This document shows, piece by piece, positions 1,884 to 40,563 of a DNA stretch of 64,000 nt (the first letter of the stretch is position 1; every line of letters begins with the position of its first letter). A program made the translations under genes and the position numbers. The DNA is from Meghimatium bilineatum. Taxonomy: Eukaryota > Mollusca > Gastropoda > Stylommatophora > Philomycidae. The notes below the pieces were generated by a model. That model made no database searches. It worked only from the letters and a program-made list of their open reading frames with translations, and was not told the origin of the DNA. The stretch spans positions 18,790,173 through 18,854,172 of the forward strand of contig CM067311.1 in the NCBI GenBank assembly GCA_034231615.1, in the 5' to 3' direction.

Positions 1884-1889
1884 CACCTG
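1884..1889 (+). repeat. Left 6-bp target-site duplication CACCTG
   Basis: CACCTG immediately precedes the AGTAGTATACC terminus and is repeated exactly after the right terminus at 16,928-16,933. Six base pairs is the known target-site duplication length of Maverick/Polinton integration. Confidence 0.9.
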
Positions 1890-2153
1890 AGTAGTATACC
1901 AGGGATGTAATGACCCCCGGATAAGGGTGATAAGGGGTGATAAGGTGATAAGGGTGATAAGGGTGATAAGGGGTGATAAGGGGTGATAAGTGTGATAAGT
2001 GTGATAAGTGATGATAAGGTACCAGATCCAATAAGGCGAGCGGATCGCGTACCGGCGCGGTGTGTGTGGGCCCGGAGCGGGCGCGGCGGGCGGCGCGGGT
2101 GGGGCGGCGAGGCCCCCGACCCTGAAAACTGGAAAAGGGGTGGGTTGTAGCAT
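1890..2153 (+). repeat. Left terminal block of palindromic element
   Basis: Three modules can be seen. First is the terminus AGTAGTATACCAGGGATGTA, followed by ATGACCCCCGG. Second, at about 1,919-2,027, is an array of roughly 9-bp units of the form GTGATAAGG. Third, at about 2,030-2,150, is a GC-rich block that ends in ACTGGAAAAGGGGTGGGT. The Polinton terminus at 44.14-44.42 kb has the same three modules in the same order, with a different short-unit array. An open frame crosses the block on the - strand but is only GC-rich and repeat sequence. Confidence 0.85.
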
Positions 2154-2159
2154 TTTCCC

Positions 2160-3508
2160 TTTAGATTTTGTGATAAAGAAAACGGTTATGGAAAGTTACA
2201 ATGAATGAGGTCATTATAACCAGGTCATACGGTGGGGGGGGGGGTCATATATACCTCTACCATATTTAGATCTAGGTCAATTCCTTAGAAGGCATAGCAT
2301 ACCGGGTGTGCCACTTGTGTTTAAAATTCAAATTCCGACCAGCAAAACACCATAAAACTTTACGATACAAGGTCAATTAACCATCTGTTAGGGCCCGGAA
2401 ACTTACAGTGAATGTTGTCAGCATAACCCGATTACGCCGTCGGGGTCATCCATAATACTACTCTATTTAGATCTGGTTCAAACTGTACGATGACATAACA
2501 CAGATGCACACTTTTCCACAAAGAAAATGGGCTGGAAACTTAGAAAGAATGAGGTCAGCATAACCGGGTTAAAAGGTGGGGGTCATATATACCTCTACCA
2601 TATTTAGATCTAGGTCAATTCCTTAGAAGGCATAGTACTGCCGTGTGTGCCACTTGTGTTTAAAATTCAAATTCTGACCAGCAAAACACCATAAAACTTT
2701 ACGGTTCAAGGTCAATTAACCATCTGGTGGGGCACGGAAACTTACAGTGAATGATGTCAGCATAACCCGATTACGCTGTCGGGGTCATCCATAATACTAC
2801 CCTATTTAGATCTGGTTCAAACTGTACGATGACATAACACAGATGCGTACTTTTCCACAAAGAAAATGGATGGAAACTTACAATGAATGAGGTCAGCATA
2901 ACCGGGTTAAAAGGTGGGGGTCATATATACCTCTACCATATTTAGATCTAGGTCAATTCATTAGAAGGAATAGCACTGACGTGTGTGCCACTTGTGTTTA
3001 AAATTCAAATTCCCACCAGCAAAACACCATAAAACTTTACGATACAAGGTCAATTAGCCATCCGGTGGGGCACGGAAACTTACACCAAATGTTGTCAGCA
3101 TAACCCGGTTACGCTGTCGGGGTCATCCATAACACTACCCTATTTAGATCTGGTTCAAACTGTACAATGATATAACACAGATGCATACTTTTCCACAAAG
3201 AAAATGGGTTGGAAACTTATAATGAATGAGGTCAGCATAACCAGATCATACGGTGGGGGTCATATATACCTCTACCATATTTAAATTTAAGTCAATTCAT
3301 TAGAAGGAATAGCACTGACGTGTGTGCCACTAGTGTTAAAAATTGAAATTCCGACCAGCAAAACACCATAAAACTTTACGTTTCAAGGTTGAGTAGCCAT
3401 CTGTTAGGGCATGGGCTATTTCAATATATGATCATTAGCGAACTTTTCCACAAAGAAACCGATACTGGAATCTTAGCACGAATGATGTCAGCATAATCCG
3501 ATCACGCA
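2160..3508. repeat. ~338-bp tandem repeat array, left arm (about 4 copies)
   Basis: The phrase GGTCATATATACCTCTACC recurs at about 2,243, 2,581, 2,919 and 3,259, giving a period of 338-340 bp. Each unit also contains TCAGCATAACCCGATTACG-like and TTTTCCACAAAGAAAATGG-like segments and a GAAACTTACA..GAATGA phrase that occurs twice per unit, so there may be an older half-unit. Partial units flank the array. No coding potential was seen. Its place, just inside the terminus where the polymerase gene would lie in a full element, suggests spacer or protein-binding DNA. Confidence 0.85.
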
Positions 3509-4280
3509 ACCAGTATATGAAAGCGAACACCCTTTATCTATCTTAGCTGTCTCTGTATATAATCACTATAAGCATGGTTGGTGTCCGAATGTAGGGATAT
3601 CGTTTTGTGATCATGCTATATTATTATTAATGATATTAATATACTGATACAAATGCTATTTAAATTATTAGTTTGAATTTCAAACAGTATTTTACAAAAT
3701 ATTTCCAGCTCTATGAAATAGTTTAAAAGGAAAAATAAATCCCTATATAAACTCCTGTGATAAACCACAGGTAAAGTGTAACGGCTTAATTACTGGCTCG
3801 AGACGGCGTACGCGTGTCAATCGATAATCACCAAGCGTGACGGCTTGACCACAGTGTAAAATGTATTAGAGTAACACAGACACTGACAAAATAATTGGGG
3901 GTAATTATAAGAAACATATATATATGCATGAAGCATACATAAGCGTGAACATGTCGCATTCATAACATTCCTTGAATTACTGAAAACGGTTAAAAATTAG
4001 TCTTACTATTAAAAAATGAAAATTTTTAAAAACTGGTCTGTTAAATGCTTACAATACGGCCACCTGGTAGAGATTAACACCTTCTGTTATGACTAGCGTC
4101 TCTGGCATCTTTATTACCATAATTTTGAATATTTGTAAACCTCACTATACAACACGATTTAGCGCTGTGTTATGAGTGTTCTCAAACTCCCTAAGTCTTC
4201 GTACATATATAGTTAAATATACCTTGGTGTAAGAATTAGAAATTGTACCAAATTAATACAATTTCATTATTACAGGCCCT

Positions 4281-4321
<41 letters not shown>

Positions 4322-5388
4322 TGTTTTTCTTTCCGTTCTTCCTAGCTTCGGCCTTTTCTTTTGTTTATCTTCATGTTAAAGGTTTGGTATGTTTGATGTA
4401 ATCTGGGTGTTTATCTTTGTATGTGTTCTTATGACGCTGGTAGTAGTGATTGGTCGTCTGCGAAGCGCAATTCGTTGAGTTATCTCTTATATTGTTTTCT
4501 TCAGTTGTTTTTGCTGCTTTGGTGATGTGATCTAAGTATGTTATATATAGATGGCCACACACACACACACATACTTACAGATATTTTCAAAGCTCTGTAG
4601 CGTGTTTAAATCTTTACAAAAGAAACATTTGACATATATGCACATTCTCAAACTCCCCCCCTTACAGTTGAGTGATTCTAAGTTGTTATCAAACACGGTT
4701 CGGGGTTGCCACACAATTGGAGTTATTAATAAACAATCTTTTTAATGTTAAATTTTAAAGAAAGGAGCGCATTAATCATAATATGAATAAGGGTCTCCAC
4801 ACATTCTTCTGTGCCTTGGCCAATGGTTCTCATTATTTTATGCTTATATTCAAGTGCTTCTCACATTGTAAAATTGAAAATTATGGTGCTGGGTGGTTAA
4901 TATAACTCATATAACAAAAATGTTCTCAGTATATTCACACTAGCTTCTATCATATTCTACCCTGTTTAATATTTTCTTAGTATGTTCTCACTAGGCTCTG
5001 CAACTATTTTCTCACTTCACGCTTTAGCCATGGTCGCAGGGTGGTCTCTGTATGAGTTTCAACTATGTTCTACCATATTATCAGTATGGTCTCGCTAGCT
5101 TCTAACATTGTCTACTTTGGGTCAATATTTTCTTAGTATATTCTCGGTAGGTTCTTCAATTATGTTTTCAGTCCCCGCTTCAATTATGGTATCTCTCTTT
5201 TAAGTTATTGTTTCTTTGCCAACAGTTCTCATAATAACATATATCCCACACCACAAACGTCATGTTTATCAGTTTTCTGAATTAGCAGTTCTATACCCAT
5301 AATAGTTACCCTACCTTTAAATAACACAGAGGAAAAGGCCAAGGGTTCTCACACCTTTAGGGTGGTTTGGGTGCTTGAATTAACTTGA
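3509..5388. other. Non-coding left-arm region with AT-run and degenerate repeats
   Basis: This stretch contains an (AT)n run at about 4,289-4,319. From about 4,780 to 5,340 it holds degenerate repeats built on phrases such as TTCTCAGTATATTC, TATGTTCTACC and AGCTTCTA. A 65-aa open frame on the - strand (4,371-4,568) has no recognised homology and looks fortuitous. In a full-length Polinton the DNA polymerase gene would occupy this place between terminus and membrane-protein gene. Confidence 0.55.
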
Positions 5389-5640
5389 CTAGCTTATGAC
5401 CCCAAACCATGATGGGGTTTCTAATGTTATCTTGGTCTGTGTATAACCCTTGTATAAATCAGTTCTGGGCTCAGCAGGTCTACCTATATCGAATATATAG
5501 AGAGCGAAGGTTCTGTTCTTCGTGATCTGTGGATAACTTCTGAGTTCTGTACCGGTCAATAACTTGAACCTCTGTAGTTTATAGAAGCTTTCTTTGTAAC
5601 AAGACAAAGCATATAGTACAACGAACCAGACAATACACAT
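5389..5640 (-). CDS. Small membrane protein (TM2-like), left-arm copy
   Basis: From the ATG at 5,640 this frame gives about 83 residues: a hydrophobic N-terminus (MCIVWFVVLYALSCYKES) expected to act as one membrane segment or signal anchor, then a polar tail. The phrase SCYKES matches TCYKES in the equivalent gene at 37,137-37,430 of the larger Polinton, and both lie just after the small basic gene. The right-arm copy has a 4-bp insertion that shifts the frame, so only the left arm keeps this reading frame. The function is unknown. The start is uncertain because the frame stays open a little upstream without an ATG, and the homologue also lacks one. Confidence 0.5.
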   Translation of the reverse strand: MCIVWFVVLYALSCYKESFYKLQRFKLLTGTELRSYPQITKNRTFALYIFDIGRPAEPRTDLYKGYTQTKITLETPSWFGVIS

Positions 5641-5750
5641 ATACAAATATAACAATGATTAAACCCGAACCATAAAAACGTGACAGACATATTTGTTCAG
5701 AGATATAAAACATATTTATTTTATGATTCGCATACCTTTTTCCAAAATAA

Positions 5751-5921
5751 TTAAGAAAGAATAAAAAAAGGTTCATGGTATAATTGACTGTTCATAGGAG
5801 TCACAGTTGTTTGTAGTTTTCGTCTCCTGGTTGGCTTCTTCTTTTTCTGTTCTGGTTGGTTGTGGGTTGCTACAGGCATCTCAGGTACATATGTGGGTTC
5901 GTAGTCGGTCGTGAGATACAT
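5751..5921 (-). CDS. Small basic Polinton protein (MYLT family), left arm
   Basis: A 56-residue frame starts MYLTTDYEPTYVPE and continues into a Lys/Arg-rich stretch (QKKKKPTRRRK). It corresponds to the 45-residue gene at 37,519-37,656 of the larger Polinton, which starts MYLTPDYEPVYVPE and sits in the same place between PC4-like and membrane-protein genes. Conservation of sequence and position in two diverged elements is the evidence that it is a real gene. The left arm has seven A/T in a homopolymer where the right arm has eight, so the two C-termini differ. A basic DNA- or core-associated protein is an inference. Confidence 0.6.
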   Translation of the reverse strand: MYLTTDYEPTYVPEMPVATHNQPEQKKKKPTRRRKLQTTVTPMNSQLYHEPFFILS

Positions 5922-5939
5922 CTCTAGATTACCAAAATA

Positions 5940-6265
5940 CTACTCTGTGGGTGTAGACATTTTGTTGGCTGTATTAGTAACTGTGTTTGCAGCTGGAGCA
6001 GTTGAATCGGTTTTTGTGCCAAAAACACCACACACTCTATCAAATTCTTTCAGAATGACCTCTCGGAGGTCTACGAGGTCTACAAATTCTTGACGACTCA
6101 TTGTGATGCTGGTTCTAGTTGGATACTTTATATTTGCATCACCATAGTAACACCGAACATGGATAAGTGGTCTCTTGAATGATGTTACGGCTACATCATT
6201 AACACCATCACCTAATGGTTTATCATATCATTGCCTCTGGAAAAATAGGTAGTTGAGGACCTCAT
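5940..6265 (-). pseudogene. PC4-like ssDNA-binding coactivator gene, frameshifted, left arm
   Basis: The sequence aligns with the intact 129-aa PC4-like gene at 37,657-38,046: TYFSRGNDMI near the N-terminus, then SFKRPLIHVR and SRQEFVDLVDLREVI, the beta-strand and helix pattern of PC4/SUB1 proteins. The reading frame from the ATG at 6,265 hits a stop after 17 codons (about 6,212-6,214), because one base is missing around 6,215-6,225. After that point the other frame stays open to 5,940. The same lesion is present in the right arm, so it most likely existed before the arms were duplicated. Rescue from an internal start is possible but unsupported. Confidence 0.7.
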
Positions 6266-6273
6266 ATTCCTAA

Positions 6274-6414
6274 TTATTGAAATGACAGTACACCATATTG
6301 AAATGACAGTTTATTTTCCCAGTGTGTGACTGTGAAACGTGGAAATATAAGCGGCAGTGACACATCAAGCCCTTTTAACATTAATAGAGCAAGGACAAAT
6401 GGTGAGTTAGTCAA
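6274..6414 (-). pseudogene. Remnant of adenain-like protease C-terminus, left arm
   Basis: About 46 codons upstream of the PC4-like gene translate to a peptide with LLMLKGLDVS...FTVTHWENKL, which lines up with LMLKARGAS...FTVKQWKNDKL at the C-terminus of the protease at 38,305-38,790. All catalytic residues lie in the lost part. This fossil shows that the arm derives from the protease-PC4-basic-membrane gene order of a full Polinton and marks one edge of the deletion that removed the capsid genes. Confidence 0.6.
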
Positions 6415-6419
6415 CTTAA

Positions 6420-7384
6420 TCATTGGGCTGGCTCAAAGCTTTTTTTGAAATGATGAGGTCTGTCTAAAGTGTAAGCCTGACTATTATTTCTTCCCTGTTC
6501 GTAGTGATCTATGATCTTACGCCTATGGGTGCTATCAAGCAAGGGTGAAATGACTAGCTCAAGCTCATTGACCCGCCTTTGAAACAGTTCCCGGTCTAAA
6601 GCAAAATAACTTCTTGTATAATGATGAGCTTCAGCCACAAAAATATAGGTAGTTATCAATTTACCCCCTGTAGCAAAATGAACCTGTAGAGTAAACAAGA
6701 GGAATATCCATTAGCTCGGCTTGTTACACTTACTTATAGGTTAGCACACTTAAGAAAAGAAAGTTCGCATTAGCTGTACGTGTATATTATTATACACTAG
6801 TTACTCCACCACGGATATAATCCGCCCCCGGTGTAGTGATATAATAGGAAGAAAAAGTACCACGACAAAATAGTCTCTGTTCGGTAATGATATTATTATT
6901 ATTATTTTATTTTTTTTCAAAGGTTAGCCTAAACACAAACAACTAAACTCCAATTACCGCCTTACAACAACAACCAATATATATGTATACATACACATAA
7001 TACCTTTCTACGACCCTGTTTGCTTTCAGTTCCTGAGACAGCGTGACAACGGGCGATGGTAGTGGTAGGATAATCATGCTCCCATTTAGCATTAATCTGA
7101 CTAAGTGATGGTAAACATGATTCTAGACTATTGGTCCCTGACTCACCAGCTAGATGAATGGTTTCTGTCTCGGATGATGGGTCTGATACGGCTTCACTTC
7201 TGGGTTTAAAGAGCGTGGCTAGCGTTAAAGGTGAATTAAAGACAGAGCAGCTTATCGGGGACATCGACATATCTTCATTGTCTGACCACCCATCACTGTC
7301 TTCATTACTACCAACGCCCTCAGTTGCCTCAGAAGCTGAACACCAAGAAAAAAGGCTCCCAAGTGGACATCTATCGAGTTGCAT
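6420..7384 (-). CDS. Two-exon gene of unknown function, left arm
   Basis: Mirror copy of the right-arm gene at 11,438-12,402. Exon 1 is 7,384-7,004 and exon 2 is 6,683-6,420 (minus strand), separated by a ~320-bp intron with GT/AG borders in phase 0. The predicted product is 214 residues: an acidic, Ser/Asp-rich N-terminal half (SNEDSDGWSDNEDMSMS) and a more ordered second half (YIFVAEAHHYTRSYFALDRE). I do not recognise the family, and the larger Polinton in this window has no counterpart. It sits where the capsid genes would be, so it may be cargo gained by the element. Confidence 0.5.
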
Positions 7385-8475
7385 TTTCACTGGCGACGTT
7401 GGTCGTATCGGCTTTTTGTTGTTGGGGTTTAAAAGACACTAATTATGGAGAAGCCACACCTACCAGCTGCCTACGGGTAATGTTAGTGCCTATAAGAGTG
7501 AAGTGTATTATAGGGTTTGTGTGCCGCCTTCAACATTAACCGCTACCAGTAATAATCTGCCGAACTAGCTAAACTCACCCGCACCGCATAAACAATAGCT
7601 AAACATATAGGGTAGCTTGTTATGGGGTTGTACCTGAGCAATACGTAGTGAAAATTTTATTAGTGTGTAACCTATACATAAAGGATGAAAAAAGGCTACC
7701 CTTCGTCATTGTCTTAAACATGCACACCTCTGAGAATGACATCTCAGCACGGGCTATAAATACGAAAGCATATGATTCTGATACTAACAAACGAGCAAAC
7801 ACCTAGTTTTATATACGAACCAGCTACACCAATCGCCTGTATTGCACTATTGAAGCACAACTGAATAGGCAATACAGGTTTGGTACTGTGCACACACTCG
7901 GAGTAACCCATTCACCCCATTGGGTGATGTGTGTATATTTGTAGGACCAAACATTTTAAAAAAATCATACGTTATCGGCACTTACTAATAGAAACTACCG
8001 GAACGTGGTCATTTTGAAGAATGACTTATGTAAGTAATGTTGTTAATATCTGAACAGGTGGTTTGTTATTCTAACAGGATTTTCAATCATAGTATTGTTT
8101 TTGGTTCTTCTTCTTCAGACATGGGTTAACGGGCACATTCGCTACCTTTTCTATGGTATTTTGATGTTAAATTTAATATCTGACATGTGTGAAATTCTAT
8201 AGGGTCTTGGTTGTTGGTCCGTTTTGGTAGTTGCCAGCATGTGGGCGTGGAAAAAAGTTGGTGTAAATGTGAATACATTTGTGTATTTTTGGTGTGTATA
8301 GATACACTAACATCCCGGTGATATATTTGGGTCGTATTTATTACTATTGTTGTGCTCGTTGTATATGTATATTGTTTGAGCTGTGTATGTATATCCTGAT
8401 TATGAGTTAGGGCTAACTATGTTTGTTATCTGCTTGGGAATTGGCTTATTTACGCAGTCCATCTATTTTCCACAG
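7385..8475. promoter_or_regulatory. Divergent promoter and 5' region, left arm
   Basis: This 1.09-kb stretch separates the unknown two-exon gene (-) from the zinc-finger fusion gene (+). A TATA box, TATAAATA, lies at 7,755-7,762 on the + strand and resembles the one upstream of the Polinton polymerase gene at 32,033. By analogy with that gene, whose first exon ends directly after its ATG, an ATG followed by GT (ATG at 8,153-8,155) is a candidate first coding exon, but it could be chance. No other gene was seen. Confidence 0.45.
7755..7762 (+). promoter_or_regulatory. TATA box for zinc-finger fusion gene, left arm
   Basis: TATAAATA lies about 720 bp upstream of the proposed zinc-finger coding exon and is mirrored exactly at 11,060-11,067. 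The distance leaves room for a non-coding or start-codon-only first exon and an intron, as in the polymerase gene of the neighbouring Polinton. Confidence 0.5.
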
Positions 8476-9189
8476 ACTAAGACGTCCACCAAAACCTTCC
8501 GGTGTGTTCAATGCTTGAAACCATTCAGTCGCCTTTACACACTGCAAAGACATACACAAGATCTTCACCTTAAAAAAAGACATAACTGTAATTTTTGTGT
8601 TAATGTTTACACAGACGCTTCAACATTAAGACAGCACAAACAGAAGTGTCATACACCCCAATTAGTAACAACGGATGGGACTTTTAAACCTAGCGAGGGG
8701 CATCATAGTAATTTAACACCAACCAAGAACATGATACTAGTTGATCCCCAGGTGGTCGACACCTTGCTGTATAAAACAGTCTATAAACCACCTGCTTCTT
8801 TAACTGATTCTACGGGTGAGTTGGACCAAGATATGCGGGCGGTTTTATCTCGTGGTGATTTAACCAATCATGAAAAATCTACACTATACCAAAAAACATT
8901 ACAACAGTATTTGAATCGACTCAGTCAATACAAAAACATACCGATGAAGCTATTAGAGAGCACGCAGTGTTCGGTACCAAGTGCCTTAATACAGAAAGAT
9001 GAAGAACCCACTGAGAAAATTCCAGAGAAAGGCGAAGTGATGTCTAAGATGCCACTGCTTCAACATAGGCGGGTATCTAAAAGAACAAAATGTAAAACAA
9101 TGGACAAAAGTCTGATTTGGGATAAGTGGTTGAAAAACTGTAGAAGGCAACGCCCCATTACACAACAACTTATCGCCTGTTTAAACTAA
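8476..9189 (+). CDS. C2H2 zinc-finger / Polinton DPxVL fusion protein, left arm
   Basis: The coding exon begins after a splice acceptor (TTTTCCACAG, ending 8,475) in phase 0, as at the polymerase gene at 32,562. Two C2H2 fingers follow (CVQC...H-X4-H, then CNFC...H-X4-H), matching the finger pair at the N-terminus of that polymerase. From about 8,730 the protein (DPQVVDTLLYKTVYKPP, later LYQKTLQQYLNRLSQYKN) is homologous to the separate protein at 42,622-43,074 (DPRVLETLQQKSTYTPP, LYQQTLQQYLIRLDQYKN). This copy reads through the ancestral stop: TAG after IWDKW in the right arm is TTG here, adding 14 codons. The fingers suggest DNA binding; the other half has no known function. The frame is open upstream to 8,383, but that part looks intronic. 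Confidence 0.7.
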   Translation, partial: TKTSTKTFRCVQCLKPFSRLYTLQRHTQDLHLKKRHNCNFCVNVYTDASTLRQHKQKCHTPQLVTTDGTFKPSEGHHSNLTPTKNMILVDPQVVDTLLYKTVYKPPASLTDSTGELDQDMRAVLSRGDLTNHEKSTLYQKTLQQYLNRLSQYKNIPMKLLESTQCSVPSALIQKDEEPTEKIPEKGEVMSKMPLLQHRRVSKRTKCKTMDKSLIWDKWLKNCRRQRPITQQLIACLN

Positions 9190-9630
9190 TATGATACTTA
9201 TATATATATTACATTAATAAGCAAAATAAAATAAGAAAACCACAACCATGTTGTTGTATTTTGTCTGTATTTGTGTGTATGTGTGTGTGTGCCTGTGTAA
9301 AAAAAAAAAGATTGCTCATAAACATAAAAAAAACTATGCCGATTTCCCTCCTAGCACGGGATCCCGTGTAGGTCCAAGATGAGAAACCAGTGTTACACGG
9401 GCCCGTGCAGCACGGGCCCGTGTAATACGGGTTTCTCATCTTGGACCTACACAGGATCCCGTGCTAGGAGGGAAATCGGCATAGTTTTTTTATGTTTATG
9501 CGCAATCTTTTTTTTTTTTTTTTACACAGGCACACACACACATACACACAAATACAGACAAAATACAAAAACATGGTTGTGGTTTTCTTATTTTATTTTG
9601 CTTATTAATGTAATATATATATAAGTATCA
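9190..9630. repeat. Centre of the palindrome with a GC-rich dyad
   Basis: The symmetry axis is at 9,409. ACACGGGCCCGTG, CAG and CACGGGCCCGTGT (9,395-9,423) form a nearly perfect dyad with no real loop. Flanking sequence is mirrored outwards through a CA/TG-rich stretch and poly-A/poly-T runs of unequal length (about 9,300-9,310 versus 9,510-9,524). Small mismatches (for example CTCA at about 9,317 versus CGCA at about 9,502) show that the arms have diverged since they formed. The mirrored open frames crossing here are repeat sequence, not genes. Confidence 0.85.
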
Positions 9631-9689
9631 TATTAGTTTAAACAGGCGATAAGTTGTTGTGTAATGGGGCGTTGCCTTCTACAGTTTTT

Positions 9690-10346
9690 CTACCACTTAT
9701 CCCAAATCAGACTTTTGTCCATTGTTTTACATTTTGTTCTTTTAGATACCCGCCTATGTTGAAGCAGTGGCATCTTAGACATCACTTCGCCTTTCTCTGG
9801 AATTTTCTCAGTGGGTTCTTCATCTTTCTGTATTAAGGCACTTGGTACCGAACACTGCGTGCTCTCTAATAGCTTCATCGGTATGTTTTTGTATTGACTG
9901 AGTCGATTCAAATACTGTTGTAATGTTTTTTGGTATAGTGTAGATTTTTCATGATTGGTTAAATCACCACGAGATAAAACCGCCCGCATATCTTGGTCCA
10001 ACTCACCCGTAGAATCAGTTAAAGAAGCAGGTGGTTTATAGACTGTTTTATACAGCAAGGTGTCGACCACCTGGGGATCAACTAGTATCATGTTCTTGGT
10101 TGGTGTTAAATTACTATGATGCCCCTCGCTAGGTTTAAAAGTCCCATCCGTTGTTACTAATTGGGGTGTATGACACTTCTGTTTGTGCTGTCTTAATGTT
10201 GAAGCGTCTGTGTAAACATTAACACAAAAATTACAGTTATGTCTTTTTTTAAGGTGAAGATCTTGTGTATGTCTTTGCAGTGTGTAAAGGCGACTGAATG
10301 GTTTCAAGCATTGAACACACCGGAAGGTTTTGGTGGACGTCTTAGT
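9690..10346 (-). CDS. C2H2 zinc-finger / Polinton DPxVL fusion protein, right arm
   Basis: Mirror copy of 8,476-9,189. The coding exon starts after the acceptor at 10,347-10,348 and ends at a TAG (9,690-9,692) directly after IWDKW. The homologous protein of the larger Polinton also ends at this point (PIWESW), so the right arm keeps the ancestral C-terminus. A stop codon (TAG at about 10,427) lies upstream in the same frame where the left arm has TAT, supporting the view that sequence before the acceptor is not coding. Fingers and the DPQVVDTL domain are as in the left copy. Confidence 0.7.
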   Translation of the reverse strand, partial: TKTSTKTFRCVQCLKPFSRLYTLQRHTQDLHLKKRHNCNFCVNVYTDASTLRQHKQKCHTPQLVTTDGTFKPSEGHHSNLTPTKNMILVDPQVVDTLLYKTVYKPPASLTDSTGELDQDMRAVLSRGDLTNHEKSTLYQKTLQQYLNRLSQYKNIPMKLLESTQCSVPSALIQKDEEPTEKIPEKGEVMSKMPLLQHRRVSKRTKCKTMDKSLIWDKW

Positions 10347-10348
10347 CT

Positions 10349-11437
10349 GTGGAAAATAGATGGACTGCGTAAATAAGCCAATTCCCAAGCAGATAACAAA
10401 CATAGTTAGCCCTAACTCATAATCAGGCTATACATACACAGCTCAAACAATATACATATACAACGAGCACAACAATAGTAATAAATACGACCCAAATATA
10501 TCACCGGGATGTTAGTGTATCTATACACACCAAAAATACACAAATGTATTCACATTTACACCAACTTTTTTCCACGCCCACATGCTGGCAACTACCAAAA
10601 CGGACCAACAACCAAGACCCTATAGAATTTCACACATGTCAGATATTAAATTTAACATCAAAATACCATAGAAAAGGTAGCGAATGTGCCCGTTAACCCA
10701 TGTCTGAAGAAGAAGAACCAAAAACAATACTATGATTGAAAATCCTGTTAGAATAACAAACCACCTGTTCAGATATTAACAACATTACTTACATAAGTCA
10801 TTCTTCAAAATGACCACGTTCCGGTAGTTTCTATTAGTAAGTGCCGATAACGTATGATTTTTTTAAAATGTTTGGTCCTACAAATATACACACATCACCC
10901 AATGGGGTGAATGGGTTACTCCGAGTGTGTGCACAGTACCAAACCTGTATTGCCTATTCAGTTGTGCTTCAATAGTGCAATACAGGCGATTGGTGTAGCT
11001 GGTTCGTATATAAAACTAGGTGTTTGCTCGTTTGTTAGTATCAGAATCATATGCTTTCGTATTTATAGCCCGTGCTGAGATGTCATTCTCAGAGGTGTGC
11101 ATGTTTAAGACAATGACGAAGGGTAGCCTTTTTTCATCCTTTATGTATAGGTTACACACTAATAAAATTTTCACTACGTATTGCTCAGGTACAACCCCAT
11201 AACAAGCTACCCTATATGTTTAGCTATTGTTTATGCGGTGCGGGTGAGTTTAGCTAGTTCGGCAGATTATTACTGGTAGCGGTTAATGTTGAAGGCGGCA
11301 CACAAACCCTATAATACACTTCACTCTTATAGGCACTAACATTACCCGTAGGCAGCTGGTAGGTGTGGCTTCTCCATAATTAGTGTCTTTTAAACCCCAA
11401 CAACAAAAAGCCGATACGACCAACGTCGCCAGTGAAA
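10349..11437. promoter_or_regulatory. Divergent promoter and 5' region, right arm
   Basis: Mirror of 7,385-8,475. It contains the TATA box of the zinc-finger fusion gene on the - strand and lies between it and the two-exon unknown gene on the + strand. Nothing else was recognised. Confidence 0.45.
11060..11067 (-). promoter_or_regulatory. TATA box for zinc-finger fusion gene, right arm
   Basis: TATTTATA on the + strand, read as TATAAATA on the - strand; the exact mirror of 7,755-7,762. Confidence 0.5.
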
Positions 11438-12402
11438 ATGCAACTCGATAGATGTCCACTTGGGAGCCTTTTTTCTTGGTGTTCAGCTTCTGAGGCAACT
11501 GAGGGCGTTGGTAGTAATGAAGACAGTGATGGGTGGTCAGACAATGAAGATATGTCGATGTCCCCGATAAGCTGCTCTGTCTTTAATTCACCTTTAACGC
11601 TAGCCACGCTCTTTAAACCCAGAAGTGAAGCCGTATCAGACCCATCATCCGAGACAGAAACCATTCATCTAGCTGGTGAGTCAGGGACCAATAGTCTAGA
11701 ATCATGTTTACCATCACTTAGTCAGATTAATGCTAAATGGGAGCATGATTATCCTACCACTACCATCGCCCGTTGTCACGCTGTCTCAGGAACTGAAAGC
11801 AAACAGGGTCGTAGAAAGGTATTATGTGTATGTATACATATATATTGGTTGTTGTTGTAAGGCGGTAATTGGAGTTTAGTTGTTTGTGTTTAGGCTAACC
11901 TTTGAAAAAAAATAAAATAATAATAATAATATCATTACCGAACAGAGACTATTTTGTCGTGGTACTTTTTCTTCCTATTATATCACTACACCGGGGGCGG
12001 ATTATATCCGTGGTGGAGTAACTAGTGTATAATAATATACACGTACAGCTAATGCGAACTTTCTTTTCTTAAGTGTGCTAACCTATAAGTAAGTGTAACA
12101 AGCCGAGCTAATGGATATTCCTCTTGTTTACTCTACAGGTTCATTTTGCTACAGGGGGTAAATTGATAACTACCTATATTTTTGTGGCTGAAGCTCATCA
12201 TTATACAAGAAGTTATTTTGCTTTAGACCGGGAACTGTTTCAAAGGCGGGTCAATGAGCTTGAGCTAGTCATTTCACCCTTGCTTGATAGCACCCATAGG
12301 CGTAAGATCATAGATCACTACGAACAGGGAAGAAATAATAGTCAGGCTTACACTTTAGACAGACCTCATCATTTCAAAAAAAGCTTTGAGCCAGCCCAAT
12401 GA
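11438..12402 (+). CDS. Two-exon gene of unknown function, right arm
   Basis: Exon 1 runs from the ATG at 11,438 to 11,818 and ends AGAAAG|GTATTATG. Exon 2 starts at 12,139 after TTTACTCTACAG and ends with TGA at 12,400-12,402. Both borders are phase 0, and joining them gives 214 residues. The first half is acidic and Ser-rich (EDSDGWSDNED) with low-complexity character typical of disordered regulatory regions. The second half has a mixed, folded-looking sequence with ISPLLDSTHRRKIIDHYEQG. There is no signal peptide or membrane segment. The family is not recognised. An additional upstream exon cannot be excluded, since the ATG lies close to other GT/AG-like signals. Confidence 0.5.
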
Positions 12403-12407
12403 TTAAG

Positions 12408-12548
12408 TTGACTAACTCACCATTTGTCCTTGCTCTATTAATGTTAAAAGGGCTTGATGTGTCACTGCCGCTTATATTTCCACGTTTCACAGTCACACAC
12501 TGGGAAAATAAACTGTCATTTCAATATGGTGTACTGTCATTTCAATAA
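12408..12548 (+). pseudogene. Remnant of adenain-like protease C-terminus, right arm
   Basis: Mirror of 6,274-6,414. An in-frame stretch ends at TAA (12,546-12,548), nine bases before the PC4-like ATG at 12,557, the same gene neighbourhood as protease-PC4 at 38 kb. The match is to the last ~45 residues of the protease only. Confidence 0.6.
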
Positions 12549-12556
12549 TTAGGAAT

Positions 12557-12882
12557 ATGAGGTCCTCAACTACCTATTTTTCCAGAGGCAATGATATGAT
12601 AAACCATTAGGTGATGGTGTTAATGATGTAGCCGTAACATCATTCAAGAGACCACTTATCCATGTTCGGTGTTACTATGGTGATGCAAATATAAAGTATC
12701 CAACTAGAACCAGCATCACAATGAGTCGTCAAGAATTTGTAGACCTCGTAGACCTCCGAGAGGTCATTCTGAAAGAATTTGATAGAGTGTGTGGTGTTTT
12801 TGGCACAAAAACCGATTCAACTGCTCCAGCTGCAAACACAGTTACTAATACAGCCAACAAAATGTCTACACCCACAGAGTAG
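12557..12882 (+). pseudogene. PC4-like gene, frameshifted, right arm
   Basis: Same gene and same lesion as the left-arm copy. From the ATG at 12,557 the frame closes at TAG 12,608-12,610. One base appears to be missing near 12,600, after which a different frame is open to TAG 12,880-12,882. The matching region (SRQEFVDLVDLREVI) shows the helix that follows the PC4 beta-sheet. An ATG at 12,721, within the open frame, could give only a truncated product. Confidence 0.7.
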
Positions 12883-12900
12883 TATTTTGGTAATCTAGAG

Positions 12901-13107
12901 ATGTATCTCACGACCGACTACGAACCCACATATGTACCTGAGATGCCTGTAGCAACCCACAACCAACCAGAACAGAAAAAGAAGAAGCCAACCAGGAGAC
13001 GAAAACTACAAACAACTGTGACTCCTATGAACAGTCAATTATACCATGAACCTTTTTTTTATTCTTTCTTAATTATTTTGGAAAAAGGTATGCGAATCAT
13101 AAAATAA
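12901..13107 (+). CDS. Small basic Polinton protein (MYLT family), right arm
   Basis: Starts 18 bases after the PC4-like stop. It shares MYLTTDYEPTYVPE and the basic stretch with the left copy, but an extra T in the run at about 13,052-13,059 changes the frame, giving 68 residues with an unrelated hydrophobic tail. The left-arm version, ending soon after the homopolymer, is probably closer to the original. Confidence 0.5.
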   Translation: MYLTTDYEPTYVPEMPVATHNQPEQKKKKPTRRRKLQTTVTPMNSQLYHEPFFYSFLIILEKGMRIIK

Positions 13108-13182
13108 ATATGTTTTATATCTCTGAACAAATATGTCTGTCACGTTTTTATGGTTCGGGTTTAATCATTGTTATATTTGTAT

Positions 13183-13437
13183 ATGTGTATTGTCTGGTTC
13201 GTTGTACTATATGCTTTGTCTTGTTACAAAGAAAGCTTCTATAAACTACAGAGGTTCAAGTTATTGACCGGTACAGAACTCAGAAGTTATCTATCCACAG
13301 ATCATGAAGAACAGAACCTTCGCTCTCTATATATTCGATATAGGTAGACCTGCTGAGCCCAGAACTGATTTATACAAGGGTTATACACAGACCAAGATAA
13401 CATTAGAAACCCCATCATGGTTTGGGGTCATAAGCTA
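13183..13437 (+). pseudogene. Small membrane protein gene, right arm, frameshifted
   Basis: Mirror of 5,389-5,640. The hydrophobic start (MCIVWFVVLYALSCYKES) is intact, but a 4-bp duplication (GTTATCTATCCACAG here, GTTATCCACAG in the left arm, near 13,290) shifts the frame in the tail. This is one of the clearest differences between the arms. Confidence 0.55.
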
Positions 13438-14503
13438 GTCAAGTTAATTCAAGCACCCAAACCACCCTAAAGGTGTGAGAACCCTTGGCCTTTTCCTCTG
13501 TGTTATTTAAAGGTAGGGTAACTATTATGGGTATAGAACTGCTAATTCAGAAAACTGATAAACATGACGTTTGTGGTGTGGGATATATGTTATTATGAGA
13601 ACTGTTGGCAAAGAAACAATAACTTAAAAGAGAGATACCATAATTGAAGCGGGGACTGAAAACATAATTGAAGAACCTACCGAGAATATACTAAGAAAAT
13701 ATTGACCCAAAGTAGACAATGTTAGAAGCTAGCGAGACCATACTGATAATATGGTAGAACATAGTTGAAGCTCATACAGAGACCACCCGGCGACCATGGC
13801 TAAAGCGTGAAGTGAGAAAATAGTTGCAGAGCCTAGTGAGAACATACTAAGAAAATATTAAACAGGGTAGAATATGATAGAAGCTAGTGTGAATATACTG
13901 AGAACATTTTTGTTATATGAGTTATATTAACCACCCAGCACCATAATTTTCAATTTTACAATGTGAGAAGCACTTGAATATAAGCATAAAATAATGAGAA
14001 CCATTGGCCAAGGCACAGAAGAATGTGTGGAGACCCTTATTCATATTATGATTAATGCGCTCCTTTCTTTAAAATTTAACATTAAAAAGATTGTTTATTA
14101 ATAACTCCAATTGTGTAGCAACCCCGAACCGTGTTTGATAACAACTTAGAATCACTCAACTGTAAGGGGGAGTTTGAGAATGTGCATATATGTCAAATGT
14201 TTCTTTTGTAAAGATTTAAACACGCTACAGAGCTTTGAAAATATCTGTAAGTATGTGTGTGTGTGTGTGGCCATCTATATATAACATACTTAGATCACAT
14301 CACCAAAGCAGCAAAAACAACTGAAGAAAACAATATAAGAGATAACTCAACGAATTGCGCTTCGCAGACGACCAATCACTACTACCAGCGTCATAAGAAC
14401 ACATACAAAGATAAACACCCAGATTACATCAAACATACCAAACCTTTAACATGAAGATAAACAAAAGAAAAGGCCGAAGCTAGGAAGAACGGAAAGAAAA
14501 ACA

Positions 14504-14534
<31 letters not shown>

Positions 14535-15309
14535 TGAGGGCCTGTAATAATGAAATTGTATTAATTTGGTACAATTTCTAATTCTTACACCAAGGTATAT
14601 TTAACTATATATGTACGAAGACTTAGGGAGTTTGAGAACACTCATAACACAGCGCTAAATCGTGTTGTATAGTGAGGTTTACAAATATTCAAAATTATGG
14701 TAATAAAGATGCCAGAGACGCTAGTCATAACAGAAGGTGTTAATCTCTACCAGGTGGCCGTATTGTAAGCATTTAACAGACCAGTTTTTAAAAAATTTCA
14801 TTTTTTAATAGTAAGACTAATTTTTAACCGTTTTCAGTAATTCAAGGAATGTTATGAATGCGACATGTTCACGCTTATGTATGCTTCATGCATATATATA
14901 TGTTTCTTATAATTACCCCCAATTATTTTGTCAGTGTCTGTGTTACTCTAATACATTTTACACTGTGGTCAAGCCGTCACGCTTGGTGATTATCGATTGA
15001 CACGCGTACGCCGTCTCGAGCCAGTAATTAAGCCGTTACACTTTACCTGTGGTTTATCACAGGAGTTTATATAGGGATTTATTTTTCCTTTTAAACTATT
15101 TCATAGAGCTGGAAATATTTTGTAAAATACTGTTTGAAATTCAAACTAATAATTTAAATAGCATTTGTATCAGTATATTAATATCATTAATAATAATATA
15201 GCATGATCACAAAACGATATCCCTACATTCGGACACCAACCATGCTTATAGTGATTATATACAGAGACAGCTAAGATAGATAAAGGGTGTTCGCTTTCAT
15301 ATACTGGTT
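13438..15309. other. Non-coding right-arm region, mirror of 3,509-5,388
   Basis: Contains the mirrored degenerate repeats (about 13,480-14,050) and an (AT)n run at about 14,505-14,534. No gene was recognised. The 65-aa frame at 14,257-14,454 is the mirror of 4,371-4,568. Confidence 0.55.
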
Positions 15310-16657
15310 GCGTGATCGGATTATGCTGACATCATTCGTGCTAAGATTCCAGTATCGGTTTCTTTGTGGAAAAGTTCGCTAATGATCATATATTGAAATA
15401 GCCCATGCCCTAACAGATGGCTACTCAACCTTGAAACGTAAAGTTTTATGGTGTTTTGCTGGTCGGAATTTCAATTTTTAACACTAGTGGCACACACGTC
15501 AGTGCTATTCCTTCTAATGAATTGACTTAAATTTAAATATGGTAGAGGTATATATGACCCCCACCGTATGATCTGGTTATGCTGACCTCATTCATTATAA
15601 GTTTCCAACCCATTTTCTTTGTGGAAAAGTATGCATCTGTGTTATATCATTGTACAGTTTGAACCAGATCTAAATAGGGTAGTGTTATGGATGACCCCGA
15701 CAGCGTAACCGGGTTATGCTGACAACATTTGGTGTAAGTTTCCGTGCCCCACCGGATGGCTAATTGACCTTGTATCGTAAAGTTTTATGGTGTTTTGCTG
15801 GTGGGAATTTGAATTTTAAACACAAGTGGCACACACGTCAGTGCTATTCCTTCTAATGAATTGACCTAGATCTAAATATGGTAGAGGTATATATGACCCC
15901 CACCTTTTAACCCGGTTATGCTGACCTCATTCATTGTAAGTTTCCATCCATTTTCTTTGTGGAAAAGTACGCATCTGTGTTATGTCATCGTACAGTTTGA
16001 ACCAGATCTAAATAGGGTAGTATTATGGATGACCCCGACAGCGTAATCGGGTTATGCTGACATCATTCACTGTAAGTTTCCGTGCCCCACCAGATGGTTA
16101 ATTGACCTTGAACCGTAAAGTTTTATGGTGTTTTGCTGGTCAGAATTTGAATTTTAAACACAAGTGGCACACACGGCAGTACTATGCCTTCTAAGGAATT
16201 GACCTAGATCTAAATATGGTAGAGGTATATATGACCCCCACCTTTTAACCCGGTTATGCTGACCTCATTCTTTCTAAGTTTCCAGCCCATTTTCTTTGTG
16301 GAAAAGTGTGCATCTGTGTTATGTCATCGTACAGTTTGAACCAGATCTAAATAGAGTAGTATTATGGATGACCCCGACGGCGTAATCGGGTTATGCTGAC
16401 AACATTCACTGTAAGTTTCCGGGCCCTAACAGATGGTTAATTGACCTTGTATCGTAAAGTTTTATGGTGTTTTGCTGGTCGGAATTTGAATTTTAAACAC
16501 AAGTGGCACACCCGGTATGCTATGCCTTCTAAGGAATTGACCTAGATCTAAATATGGTAGAGGTATATATGACCCCCCCCCCACCGTATGACCTGGTTAT
16601 AATGACCTCATTCATTGTAACTTTCCATAACCGTTTTCTTTATCACAAAATCTAAAG
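15310..16657. repeat. ~338-bp tandem repeat array, right arm
   Basis: Mirror of the 2,160-3,508 array: about four units with a period of 338-340 bp, each holding GGTAGAGGTATATATGACC on this strand. The last unit has a C-run of nine (16,571-16,579), mirrored by a longer G-run in the left arm. Confidence 0.85.
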
Positions 16658-16663
16658 GGAAAA

Positions 16664-16927
16664 TGCTACAACCCACCCCTTTTCCAGTTTTCAGGGTCGG
16701 GGGCCTCGCCGCCCCACCCGCGCCGCCCGCCGCGCCCGCTCCGGGCCCACACACACCGCGCCGGTACGCGATCCGCTCGCCTTATTGGATCTGGTACCTT
16801 ATCATCACTTATCACACTTATCACACTTATCACCCCTTATCACCCCTTATCACCCTTATCACCCTTATCACCCTTATCACCCCTTATCACCCTTATCCGG
16901 GGGTCATTACATCCCTGGTATACTACT
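16664..16927 (-). repeat. Right terminal block of palindromic element
   Basis: Mirror of 1,890-2,153: GC-rich block, array of 9-bp units (TTATCACCC-type, about 16,796-16,900), then CCGGGGGTCATTACATCCCT and GGTATACTACT at the very end. One unit differs by a single G/C indel from the left arm. Confidence 0.85.
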
Positions 16928-16933
16928 CACCTG
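16928..16933 (+). repeat. Right 6-bp target-site duplication CACCTG
   Basis: Identical to 1,884-1,889 and directly abuts the CT-3' terminus of the element. Confidence 0.9.
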
Positions 16934-23270: not shown

Positions 23271-24771
23271 CCATTATTGTAAACCATTAATGTAAATCAT
23301 TACATAACGCATTCTTCTTCTCGGACATCCTGCTAATCTGCAGAAGTTTGAGAACGAACGCAGAAGTGATAATCCTTTCTATGGTTGTCGCAGACTGAAC
23401 TAGTAAAAACGATTCGTGTCACACTGCTGGTGGTTAAGTGTCTAATGGACGTATCTGGTTACAGTATTGTGCGCAATCTTCCATTGTACTTGTGAAAACT
23501 CTCTTTCTGTGTGTTCAGACAATTCCCATTTTATATTTAAACTGAAAAGTGTGCTTTCTAACAAGCAATTTCACAAGATAATTTAGTTGAAGACATTTCA
23601 ACATTTCACCATGCTAAACTTTCATTTGGTTAATACAGACAGATTTCATGATAGTGGTGAGAACAGCTATCTCCCCTGCGTCCACTCTTGTTTCCTGCGT
23701 ACATGAGCAAAACAACAGAGCCTGCCCTTCTGATTTCAACGTAGCTCGTTTAAACGGCGTTTATTGAGGTGTGAGTCCTTATTTGTTTCTCTCGGGTTCA
23801 CATTCAGACAGGCAGGATTGGTCAATACAATTTGCAGATATCAGGGTTCCCACAGGAGACTCTCTTTTCGTTGCTGTGTGCCGGTTTGAATAGCCTGGGT
23901 CCAATAATTAGCATTCCGCATCCGAATTTTATTAAGAAACCAATGGTCACTTAACTTCCTAACTAGGTTCTGAGCTTAGGAAGGTCAGATAAAAGTCGCA
24001 GTGTCCAACAATGCTTCAAGTACAAGTGCAATAAACAGTTATAAATCCATTTCTTTGTCATTCTTCTGTTAGTATTAGCGCACTTTCCCAAACAAGCTAT
24101 CAAATTAAATTGATTCTTTTCAACTGAATAATGAGAGTCTCGCTCAATCTTACAATGGTCCGAGAGACAAGTCAGTGCATGTATTGAGAACCCTGGTCTA
24201 TAAGATTGTTTTACGACTCAGTTCATACAAAGAGAACCCATACTGAGTTTATGCTGATCTATAAGACTTTTATGCTTCTTCTTTATCGTTCTTCAGTCAG
24301 ATAGCAGGTTACAACGCCAATAGCTTCAATGAATAGTGCGACTCGCTTCAGGTTATCCATGGAATCCCTCAGGTCTGGAAGCAGTGTCATCTCAGTAGGC
24401 CATATTTTCTCACTCTCTCCTTGATAGAGTTGACAGACATGTAGATTGTATTCTGCAGTCTCTGGGCACAGTTGGGTGCATCTGTTTCCACTTTTTTGTA
24501 AATTCTGCTGTTATCACAGTCTACATTATTAGTACCTATTATCACTTTCTTACGAGTCAATGCATGCAAAGAGAACGTTTATTGAGTTTAAACTGATCTA
24601 TATTAAGATCCTTTGTCTTGTGATATTAAATGAAATCGGGCAGAACGAGTTTTGAAAGACAAAATATTAATTGTTTTCTATTTTGGAGAAAAGGTTTAAG
24701 ACGGCAAAAAGGATCAACCTCATTGTACTCGTGCTTACCCCTATACACTCTGTGTCTTCCATGGCTGGCGC
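23271..24771. other. No gene seen
   Basis: Contains a short 16-bp repeat (CTGTAAACCATTATTG-type, 23,255-23,305). Otherwise no recognisable coding, RNA or repeat feature; open frames are short. Confidence 0.45.
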
Positions 24772-24880
24772 ACGATGTTAGATGAGACATCATAGACACA
24801 CTATGTTAGATGAGACATCACAGACACACTATGTTAGATGAGACATCACAGACACACGATACCAGATGAAACATCGCAGA
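24772..24880 (+). repeat. 28-bp tandem repeat (about 4 units)
   Basis: GTTAGATGAGACATCACAG and its neighbours recur with a 28-bp period at about 24,779, 24,807 and 24,835, with a decayed fourth unit. Directly precedes the CATC/ATCT microsatellite. Confidence 0.8.
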
Positions 24881-24892
24881 TGCCAGATGAAA

Positions 24893-25890
<998 letters not shown>

Positions 25891-26620
25891 TATCTAATCA
25901 GTCTGTCTATATCTCTGTACAAAATATAGTATCTCAGTCTGTATTTATATCTGTACGTCCGTTTAATTATATCTATATCAACGTATCTAGATTATTGTCT
26001 GTTTGTCGTAAATCTACTAGACTGTCAGTTGAACCATTTATTCATTCATACATGTATTCCTGTGTCATGCTGTCATACTTTATCAGGGGTGTGCCATCTA
26101 AAGGCAATGATAACTGCACATCAAACCAGTTTAGGATAGAACGGCCCTCAGAGACAGACATTCACAGACAGCTGTAAAGGAATCTTCAGGAGCTGTCAAA
26201 TACAGCAACATTATTCCAGAAATTCGAACTGGCTGTGTGATGATGATATAATTCCATTTAGATGAGTGAATGGGGCTCTTGAGAACCAATAGTCTTTGAG
26301 ATAAAGTACATGTTCTTTTGAACTGTGTAATTTAGGTAATACACTGACTGTTGTAAGTTTGTTTCAAAGGCACGGTTTGTGTAAGGGAGATTTAAAGATG
26401 CATTTTGAGTCTACGATTTTGAGTACCCACTGATCACCACATACTGCCAGGTGCACAGCACACACTTCTGGATCAACTCTCTCATTATTATTTGGTCATA
26501 TTTGTTGACCCATCCACAGTTTTGTAAATTCTAGCATTTCCCGCCATCTTAGAGTGCTAAAAACAAAAATGCAAAGATGCAATGTCCGCTGGCCTGTATA
26601 TTGTCGTCATTCTTGGGCGA
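25891..26620. other. No gene seen
   Basis: Intergenic sequence after the microsatellite; a 60-codon frame at 25,995-26,177 has no recognised similarity. Confidence 0.4.
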
Positions 26621-29770: not shown

Positions 29771-29775
29771 GAAAA

Positions 29776-29965
29776 GAGCCTCATATGCTGAATTACGTTT
29801 CACCTGTAATGTAACATTCACAGAGCCTCATATGCTGAATTACGTTTCACCTGTAATGTAACAATCACAGAGCCTCATATGCTGAATTACGTTTCACGTA
29901 TGGTATAATATTTACAGAGCCTATTATGCTGAATTACGTTTCCTCGGAGGAGTAACATTTACAGA
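29776..29965 (+). repeat. 47-bp tandem repeat, 4 copies
   Basis: GAGCCTCATATGCTGAATTA recurs at about 29,776, 29,823, 29,870 and 29,917 (47-bp period), with the last copy more diverged. Confidence 0.85.
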
Positions 29966-29967
29966 AC

Positions 29968-30115
29968 TCAGTATTGCACATCAAAGAGCCGAACATTGCA
30001 CACTAAAAAGCCCAACAGTGCACACTAAAATGCCTAACATTGCACATCAAAGAGCCCAACATTGCACATCAAAGAGTCCATCATTGCACATCAAGAGTCC
30101 TTCATTGCACATCAC
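29968..30115 (+). repeat. ~18-22-bp degenerate tandem repeat
   Basis: Units of the form CATTGCACATCAAAGAGCC repeat seven or eight times with length variation. It adjoins the 47-bp array. Confidence 0.75.
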
Positions 30116-31174
<1,059 letters not shown>

Positions 31175-31435
31175 GTGCATATATATATATGCATATATAT
31201 TTGTGCATATATATATATATGTATATATATATGTGCACATATATATGCCCTAGGGAAGCATAGGGCCCTCGTTAACAACACTCTTCTTAACTACATAAGT
31301 TATACTCATTCATATACCGGAATTTTCAGAGTATCCATAAAAAAAGAATGCGTTCTGAGAAAAAATATGTTGATTAACTATTATATATGTAAGGCACACT
31401 TAACTATTATATATATATATATACATACATATATA

Positions 31436-31562
31436 CATACATATATATATATACATACATACATACATACATACATACATACATACATACATACATACAT
31501 ACATACATACATACATACATACATACATACATACATACATACATACATACATACATACATAC

Positions 31563-31593
<31 letters not shown>

Positions 31594-31725
31594 CATACAT
31601 ACATACATACATACATACATACATACATACATACATACATACATACATACATACATACATACATACATACATACATACATACACCCATACATACATACAT
31701 ACATACACCCATACATACATACATG
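31436..31725 (+). repeat. (ACAT)n microsatellite
   Basis: About 290 bp of ACAT units with a few variants (CTTACAT at about 31,561; ACACCCAT near the end). It lies about 35-100 bp from the point where the Polinton sequence is first recognisable, so the missing left terminus may have been lost near it. Confidence 0.95.
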
Positions 31726-32032
31726 TGCGTATGTTTGCATTTGTTGTAAGCCAGAATAAAGTTTAAATAATTTGCACTAAGATTTCCCCGATAACGACAG
31801 GTAGCAACATCTGGCATTAATCGCTTTCTCTTCACCCGAGTGCGTGTGAACCACGCCAACGGAAATACTCACCATAAACTTTGATAGAAAAGCTTAGACC
31901 TTGACCTTGTCACTCTGAGAACGCGTTAGTAGTAATTCTGGTTTAACTGGTTGAAACCAGGCTTAGCTGGTTATTTCAGAAATCCACATAGTTGAAACCA
32001 AGAAATTTTTGCTGCGTCAGCCTTCAGCGTTC

Positions 32033-38790: not shown

Positions 38791-38794
38791 TCTC

Positions 38795-40560: not shown

Positions 40561-40563
40561 TGT

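Follow-up and report, generated by a model that had tools for sequence, protein, structure and literature searches.

Palindromic elements in the genome of Meghimatium bilineatum: a probable family of self-complementary Polinton satellites

A palindrome of about 15 kb in a chromosome of Meghimatium bilineatum raises the question of whether its two arms came together after a normal element had been inserted, or whether the palindrome itself is the unit that moves. It occupies positions 1890–16927 of a stretch of 64,000 nucleotides on contig CM067311.1 (called here the window, always in the sense of the whole stretch analysed). The reading preferred here, to which we give a probability of roughly 0.78, is that the element is a non-autonomous, self-complementary, snap-back satellite of a Polinton, relying on the enzymes of a helper.

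Architecture and recurrence of the palindrome

Comparison of the window with itself by BLAST gives one inverted match, 1888–16929 against 16929–1888, with 99.5% identity over 15,065 columns; the two inverted arms of about 7.5 kb described in the initial annotation are thus borne out by a single full-length self-match, and an axis near 9409 separates the left arm (1890–9409, + strand) from the right arm (9410–16927, − strand). In the global alignment of one arm with the other, 12 outer bases included, 43 of 7,543 columns differ; seven of these belong to the flank or the target site, and many of the remainder are indels in microsatellites or homopolymers. The element opens with AGTAGT at 1890 and closes with ACTACT at 16927, between two copies of CACCTG (1884–1889 and 16928–16933), in agreement with the AG...CT termini and identical flanks noted earlier; a 6-bp target duplication and AG...CT ends are features of the Polinton family. 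The span of 1884–16933 formerly given does contain the palindrome, but it takes in both duplications. The absence of a spacer nearly holds for the window copy, but other copies have a short, partly asymmetric axis loop. The axis region (9330–9485) is built of nested GC-rich hairpin motifs (CACGGGATCCCGTG / CACGGGCCCGTG), and at its centre motifs such as CACGGGATCCCGTG are nested around spacers in an arrangement that varies by copy, being near symmetric in the window, asymmetric at loci L002, L004 and L007, longer at L029 and truncated on one side at L076. This variety fits a fold-back point that is remade occasionally.

The genome that holds the window (1.61 Gb in 32 contigs) contains many such copies. 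The zinc-finger frame near the axis matches at least 41 places, with the best 40 of 524 candidates scored, mostly as plus/minus pairs with about 0.4–0.5 kb between the frames. A 30-base marker from the zinc-finger gene, allowing up to 2 mismatches, was found at 111 forward and 102 reverse places (213), and its reversed control at 0 and 0. Pairing of this marker and of the terminal motif was done on the first 100 places of each listing, exact matches ahead. For the marker, 90 of these 100 places form 45 plus-then-minus pairs spaced 1283–1864 bp apart (median 1679), and 10 are single, which argues that palindromy is the usual state; we read the number of palindromic copies, as far as marker counts can tell, as being of the order of a hundred. 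The terminal motif, allowing up to one mismatch, occurs at 111 forward and 92 reverse places (control, 0 and 0), and the first 100 places listed yield 36 inward pairs, 2.2–18.4 kb apart, and 28 singles. Since the marker listing reaches contig 19, marker content was counted for the 32 inward pairs on contigs 1–19, leaving out 4 of the 36: among the matches listed, 21 pairs contain two zinc-finger markers, 3 contain one, and 8 contain none. The two markers are centred within 67 bp of the midpoint in 20 of the 21 two-marker pairs, and at 385 bp from it in the remaining one. On contig C21 (16561195–16563413), two inward terminal motifs lie 2.2 kb apart, possibly as a miniature member of the family.

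Insertion sites were compared in 32 elements, namely the window copy, 11 others of which both halves were read, and 20 inward pairs of the terminal motif read at their two ends. A perfect 6-bp target duplication flanks 25 of them (17 of 23 palindromes, 4 of 5 coding elements, and all 4 elements assigned to neither type), and all 25 duplications are distinct, 14 of them starting with CA; other copies with different 6-bp duplications, which the initial annotation had asked for, therefore exist. That the duplication is 6 bp long follows from the next outward base, where agreement (5 of 25 and 8 of 25 cases) is about what chance would give. Since the architecture recurs throughout the genome and so many of the elements carry a perfect duplication, a chance origin is excluded. 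Three elements with unlike 31-base ends and imperfect duplications (L033/L034, L047/L048 and L063/L064) are perhaps products of recombination between copies.

These data bear on two explanations by which the palindrome would be something other than the inserted unit. According to the first, a normal element was duplicated and inverted within the chromosome, or two insertions came to lie head to head, for which nothing speaks beyond the view of a single locus; one 6-bp duplication flanks the whole palindrome instead of each arm, and the 45 convergent pairs among the first 100 marker places listed have a near-constant spacing. On the strength of these recurrent paired copies and the single flanking duplication, inversion after insertion is rejected for the family as a whole, and we consider it highly improbable; the earlier proposal that the palindrome existed before integration is upheld by the many palindromic copies with different 6-bp duplications. 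According to the second, the palindromes are false and stem from the assembly, through hairpin reads or the collapse of an inverted repeat. Palindromes are indeed hard to assemble, as is evident from the 100-N gap in one arm of 2 of 12 copies. A missed adapter in a read would, however, make the flanks palindromic as well, and here the flanks differ and begin exactly at the element ends; the duplication is different at each of the 25 loci, the arms differ by substitutions, and the midpoints of same-ended coding elements in this assembly are not palindromic. We regard an artefact as next to impossible.

Shared ends and gene content

The left terminal module (1890–2145, + strand) consists of a 31-bp end, AGTAGTATACC..., and short tandem repeats of the ATAAGGGTG type, and is closed by the conserved motif GACCCTGAAAACTGGAAAAGGGGTGGGT (2118–2145); its right copy lies at 16671–16927 (− strand). 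In the family, the 31-base end gives way to short tandem repeats, which are of several kinds, and these to the conserved motif, and this kind of terminal module is common to the palindromes and to five non-palindromic elements. An exact 31-base end is common to palindrome L011 and coding element L037 (midpoint L075), and likewise to palindrome L039 and the coding elements L041 (midpoint L077) and L043 (midpoint L078), so that three of the five coding elements share an exact end with some palindrome. Measured from motif to motif, 21 palindromes have a mean length of 14,211 (13,277–15,253) and the 5 coding elements one of 14,299 (12,738–15,755), a similarity that, in a small sample, would fit a shared packaging limit.

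The content of the coding elements was read as 1 kb at the midpoint of eight inward pairs with the motif GACCCA. Three midpoints (L073, L076 and L079, with L076 asymmetric) are palindromic and have the zinc-finger gene at the axis; the other five (L074, L075, L077, L078 and L080) are non-palindromic and represent mutually overlapping parts of one related region. Polymerase parts were recognised by motif in four of these five, the end of the gene being covered over 288 codons in L075, 225 in L080, 179 in L074 and only the last codons in L077; LLGNAAYGKT is present only in L075, and MDTDSLYLA in L075 and L080 and, with one change, in L074. L077 and L078 also carry part of a PC4-like gene, and the element to which L077 belongs (C14:16.20–16.22 Mb) encodes an adenain-like protease above the Pfam cut-off, together with two frames that we take to be capsid-like and minor capsid-like. 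A search of viral contigs with the polymerase fragment gave a single match, L083, which looks like a chance match to a phage contig, and the structure prediction for the 288-residue fragment (mean pLDDT 33.9) was left unused. The flanks of a different Polinton-like element were met at L031/L032 (C24:19398600–19420500), where a 1350-residue open frame has a polymerase match (PF03175) and further frames resemble ATPase and protease by eye; this element shares no DNA with the palindrome arm, and no such terminus occurs in the stretches read.

About 15.6 kb from the palindrome, the window itself contains a decayed, non-palindromic Polinton of a related family (32496–44421), in which polymerase pieces on the + strand are followed, on the − strand, by PC4-like, protease, capsid-like, integrase, small-protein and ATPase frames, and whose right terminal module ends at about 44421. 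Pfam recognises only zinc fingers in the polymerase pieces (32496–36537), and scores the PC4-like gene at 26.4 bits (cut-off 25) and the protease at 23.8 bits (cut-off 21.3). The integrase (41579–42637, − strand) has an rve core and a chromodomain, both above the cut-off (rve 56.7 against 32.6; Chromo 30.6 against 25.1), the ATPase-like frame stays below it (Adeno_IVa2 19.8 against 21), and the capsid-like frames have no Pfam match; the polymerase and the capsid-like protein have no relatives in viral contigs. The small-protein frame (42625–43089, − strand) encodes 155 residues homologous to the C-terminal part of the zinc-finger protein of the palindrome. The Polinton-type integration proposed for the palindrome thus gains support from elements with the same ends that carry Polinton-type genes and from the rve integrase of this relative. 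Elsewhere in the window, long tandem arrays of short units lie at 24771–25918, 31393–31746 and 49794–51023, and frames at 55011–58981 resemble, by eye, the reverse transcriptase and RNase H of a non-LTR retrotransposon.

The palindrome retains part of this gene set. Its PC4-like frame, putatively for a single-strand DNA-binding protein (5943–6227, − strand; right arm, 12595–12879, + strand), is 58% identical to the PC4-like protein of the window Polinton, and the homology to the Polinton gene runs on beyond the stop at 5940–5942. A probable remnant of the protease gene (72 bp, 6313–6384, − strand) is 71% identical to window 38371–38442, and because of this remnant the order in arm positions 5512–6384 can be read as that of the coding elements, namely polymerase end, PC4-like gene and protease end; homology to that gene order ends at 6384. 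Next to it are open frames of 96 codons (6423–6710, − strand; mirror copy 12112–12399, + strand) and 158 codons (6965–7438, − strand; mirror copy 11384–11857, + strand), neither of which has a relative in Pfam or in the window Polinton.

Nearest to the axis, a zinc-finger gene of 256 codons in the left arm (8419–9189, + strand) and 237 codons in the right (9690–10403, − strand) looks, from its alignments, chimeric, joining polymerase-like fingers to the domain of a small Polinton protein. With numbering from 8404, residues 108–242 match residues 8–155 of the small protein at 46% identity in an alignment of 149 columns, and the two N-terminal C2H2 fingers align with the two at the N-terminus of the polymerase of the relative (pairwise E 1.9e-10). 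Descent of the zinc-finger part from the polymerase is likely, though unproven, since C2H2 fingers are common. Compared with the layout of the window relative, the small-protein part is inverted relative to the PC4-like gene. The protein has no relatives among phage records or viral contigs, and substitution counts between subtypes of the gene are too low to judge selection.

In the translated comparison of the arm with window 28,001–46,000, 80 of 90 matches fall in the PC4-like region, the small-protein region, the terminal module or simple repeat; the remaining 10, one of which marks the probable protease remnant, are short and reach at most 29 bits, in agreement with the lack of replication and capsid genes asserted at the outset. 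Specifically, no arm match to the polymerase pieces exceeds 29 bits, and none of the 7 palindrome frames tested has a Pfam match to a polymerase; by Pfam on the frames and the translated comparison, neither an RVE integrase nor a packaging ATPase nor a capsid gene is recognisable, and of a cysteine protease gene there is at most the 72-bp remnant. A protein-primed polymerase and an RVE integrase are given as Polinton genes in two papers (PMC4028283, PMC6431247), the first of which names the protein-primed polymerase as conserved in Polintons. As no polymerase, integrase or capsid gene is recognisable, the palindrome is not a Polinton proper: the Polinton-type character assigned to it stands for the 6-bp duplication and the AG...CT ends, but not for the polymerase, the RVE integrase or the ATPase, protease and capsid genes.

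This gene content could also belong to an element independent of Polintons, moved by its own proteins and host enzymes and owing its shared ends to recombination. Two or more frames derived from Polintons, along with two open frames that have no known relatives, would leave room for such an element; no polymerase or integrase is recognisable in it, however, and both the 31-base ends and the length of the duplication are common to it and the coding elements, so that independence appears improbable.

The other features of the arms are repetitive. Tandem repeats of about 345 bp, without a long open frame, follow the terminal module in the left arm (2175–3414, + strand) and precede it in the right (15403–16641, − strand), with offset self-matches such as 2175–3072 against 2520–3411 at 91%. 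To the left of the large palindrome, a second, small one lies at 735–1401 (678 columns, 90% identity, axis at about 1068), for which there is no long inverted match among the matches listed. Rfam and tRNA scans of the window gave nothing.

Likeness of the arms and the proposed replication cycle

Within copies, the differences between the two arms, summed over all copies for each of three arm pieces, amount to 6, 8 and 16 (9, 11 and 12 copies, respectively), whereas 10,000 re-pairings per piece averaged 234.8, 97.4 and 83.5 and never fell below 12, 18 and 30. Incomplete or gapped arms were excluded, namely L017R, L019R and L025L from the first piece and L025L from the second. For 11 of 18, 12 of 22 and 14 of 24 arms, the nearest arm is strictly the partner, and for a further 6, 8 and 5 the partner is tied. 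As the variants specific to a copy are mostly present on both of its arms, the arms must have been homogenised. A T at 8394 together with a T at 9131 is confined to one arm of the window copy and one arm of L009, the 22 other arms lacking the combination; the two copies lie on different contigs and have different duplications. From these shared variants, it is most likely that both derive from a palindrome with two distinguishable arms, which argues that what is inherited is the palindrome itself, subject to conversion.

Where the conversion takes place is the point on which the most serious competing explanation turns. The element might be an ordinary non-autonomous Polinton whose terminal repeats once grew to full length, and whose arms are kept alike mainly by gene conversion in the chromosome. 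Long inverted repeats in chromosomes undergo conversion, and the arms of the window copy differ at 5038 and 5522, where one has the allele of L009 and the other that of the other copies. Among the 29 elements with both ends read, however, 17 different 31-base left ends occur, and yet 22 have the same sequence at both ends, while 4 differ between their ends by a single base and 3 by 5–9 bases; this identity within elements fits copying from end to end in each cycle. Moreover, L009 is an outlier in the 3420–5000 piece, with the largest between-copy count (122), and yet its own arms are identical there. Maintenance mainly by chromosomal conversion is thus unlikely, with a greater claim to attention than the other alternatives.

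For the snap-back satellite, the following cycle can be envisaged. The protein-primed polymerase of the helper would copy the linear DNA from its ends; the displaced strand, being self-complementary, would therefore snap into a 7.5-kb hairpin, whose open end would again be a complete origin. Copying round the axis loop would restore the double-stranded palindrome, and mismatch correction within the hairpin would make the arms alike. The integrase of the helper would then insert the molecule through its two identical ends, and packaging in helper capsids may also occur, which would accord with a satellite about as long as its helper.

Several observations weigh against this reading. No free or packaged form has been seen, for which reason every step of replication is inferred. 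The partner arm is nearest or tied for only 17 of 18, 20 of 22 and 19 of 24 arms in the three pieces, and the similarity of the arms could derive in part from gene conversion after insertion. A perfect duplication is missing from 7 of the 32 elements: the right end of L017 and L019 was not found, that arm having a 100-N gap, nor was the left end of L061; L047 and L053 have a duplication with one mismatch, and L033 and L063 have unlike ends and a duplication with 3 or 4 mismatches. Three pairs without a listed zinc-finger marker are untyped (C1:95.6, C2:119.4 and C3:45.1 Mb). As to the helper, its polymerase was assigned by motif, LLGNAAYGKT and MDTDSLYLA being taken as motifs of family B polymerases; the polymerase fragments gave nothing convincing against Pfam, PHROGs and PDB sequences, and none of the 19 matches to Pfam PF03175 in the genome lies at the five coding elements. 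The kilobase read at L078 has no polymerase code, only the adjoining region; the integrase was seen only in the window relative, the stretches read in the five same-ended elements lying outside their integrase region; and in this relative the left terminus was not found and the polymerase is broken. Lastly, in the 12 copies of which both arms were read, the frame of the zinc-finger gene has at least 237 codons on both arms in 6 and 196 and 239 codons on the two arms in 1, and in 5 it has 55 codons on both arms, through the same shift beside an A-run. Since five copies share this truncating shift, either the gene is dispensable in some copies or the shift is a homopolymer sequencing error.

A more specific form of the satellite reading is offered tentatively, and is as a whole somewhat less likely than not: the family may represent a new class of palindromic Polinton satellite whose genome exists as a hairpin, primed by protein at one end and closed by a loop at the other, which carries a zinc-finger protein as a decoy against the helper and spreads to many sites of an animal genome. 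Such a decoy, with polymerase-like fingers fused to a small protein of the helper, could serve to capture the replication of the helper or to interfere with it.

Comparison with known systems

With Polintons (also called Mavericks or polintoviruses), the palindrome has in common the 6-bp duplication, the AG...CT ends and inverted terminal repeats, as well as homologous PC4-like and small-protein genes and related ends; it differs in having no recognisable polymerase, integrase, ATPase or capsid gene, and in that the inverted repeat is the whole element. Foldback transposons resemble it in their very long inverted repeats and internal tandem repeats, but foldback elements have a 9-bp target duplication, in contrast to the 6-bp duplication and Polinton-family ends found here. 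With virophages and other satellites of large DNA viruses it would share dependence on another element; virophages keep their own capsid genes, whereas no capsid gene was found in the palindrome. No palindromic Polinton family turned up in the open-access literature searched, as far as its text was available, most subscription papers being outside its reach; within these bounds, the family is undescribed, as had been supposed. The element can be described as a satellite of a Polinton family whose inverted repeat takes up its whole length.

A further likeness is to snap-back defective genomes, for which self-complementary genomes of adeno-associated virus (PMC8235507) and the left-end DNA of incomplete adenovirus particles (PMC5033970, PMC12090768) provide examples. 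In both cases the molecule is a double-stranded palindrome that has lost replication and capsid genes and whose open end bears an origin of the helper's type, which in our element would be the terminal module; self-complementarity extends over the full length of the palindrome, and terminal sequence lies at its open end. The original work of 1976 on incomplete adenovirus particles reportedly described left-end DNA with an inverted structure. Snap-back defective genomes arise anew during replication, whereas the palindrome forms a family at many loci, is inherited in palindromic form and carries a chimeric gene. Of the two possibilities raised earlier, a defective or a satellite genome, the data thus favour a large family and a propagating satellite, with at least two Polinton-derived genes kept, over an occasional defective genome. 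Self-complementary genomes are otherwise known as by-products of infection or laboratory vectors; here, such genomes seem to make up a family of large transposons that is heritable and has been successful. If this reading holds, the family is a natural record of protein-primed replication, with modules copied to both ends, arms converted and loops rearranged, and Polintons have satellites of their own, through which their replication cycle can be tested from genome sequence and long reads.

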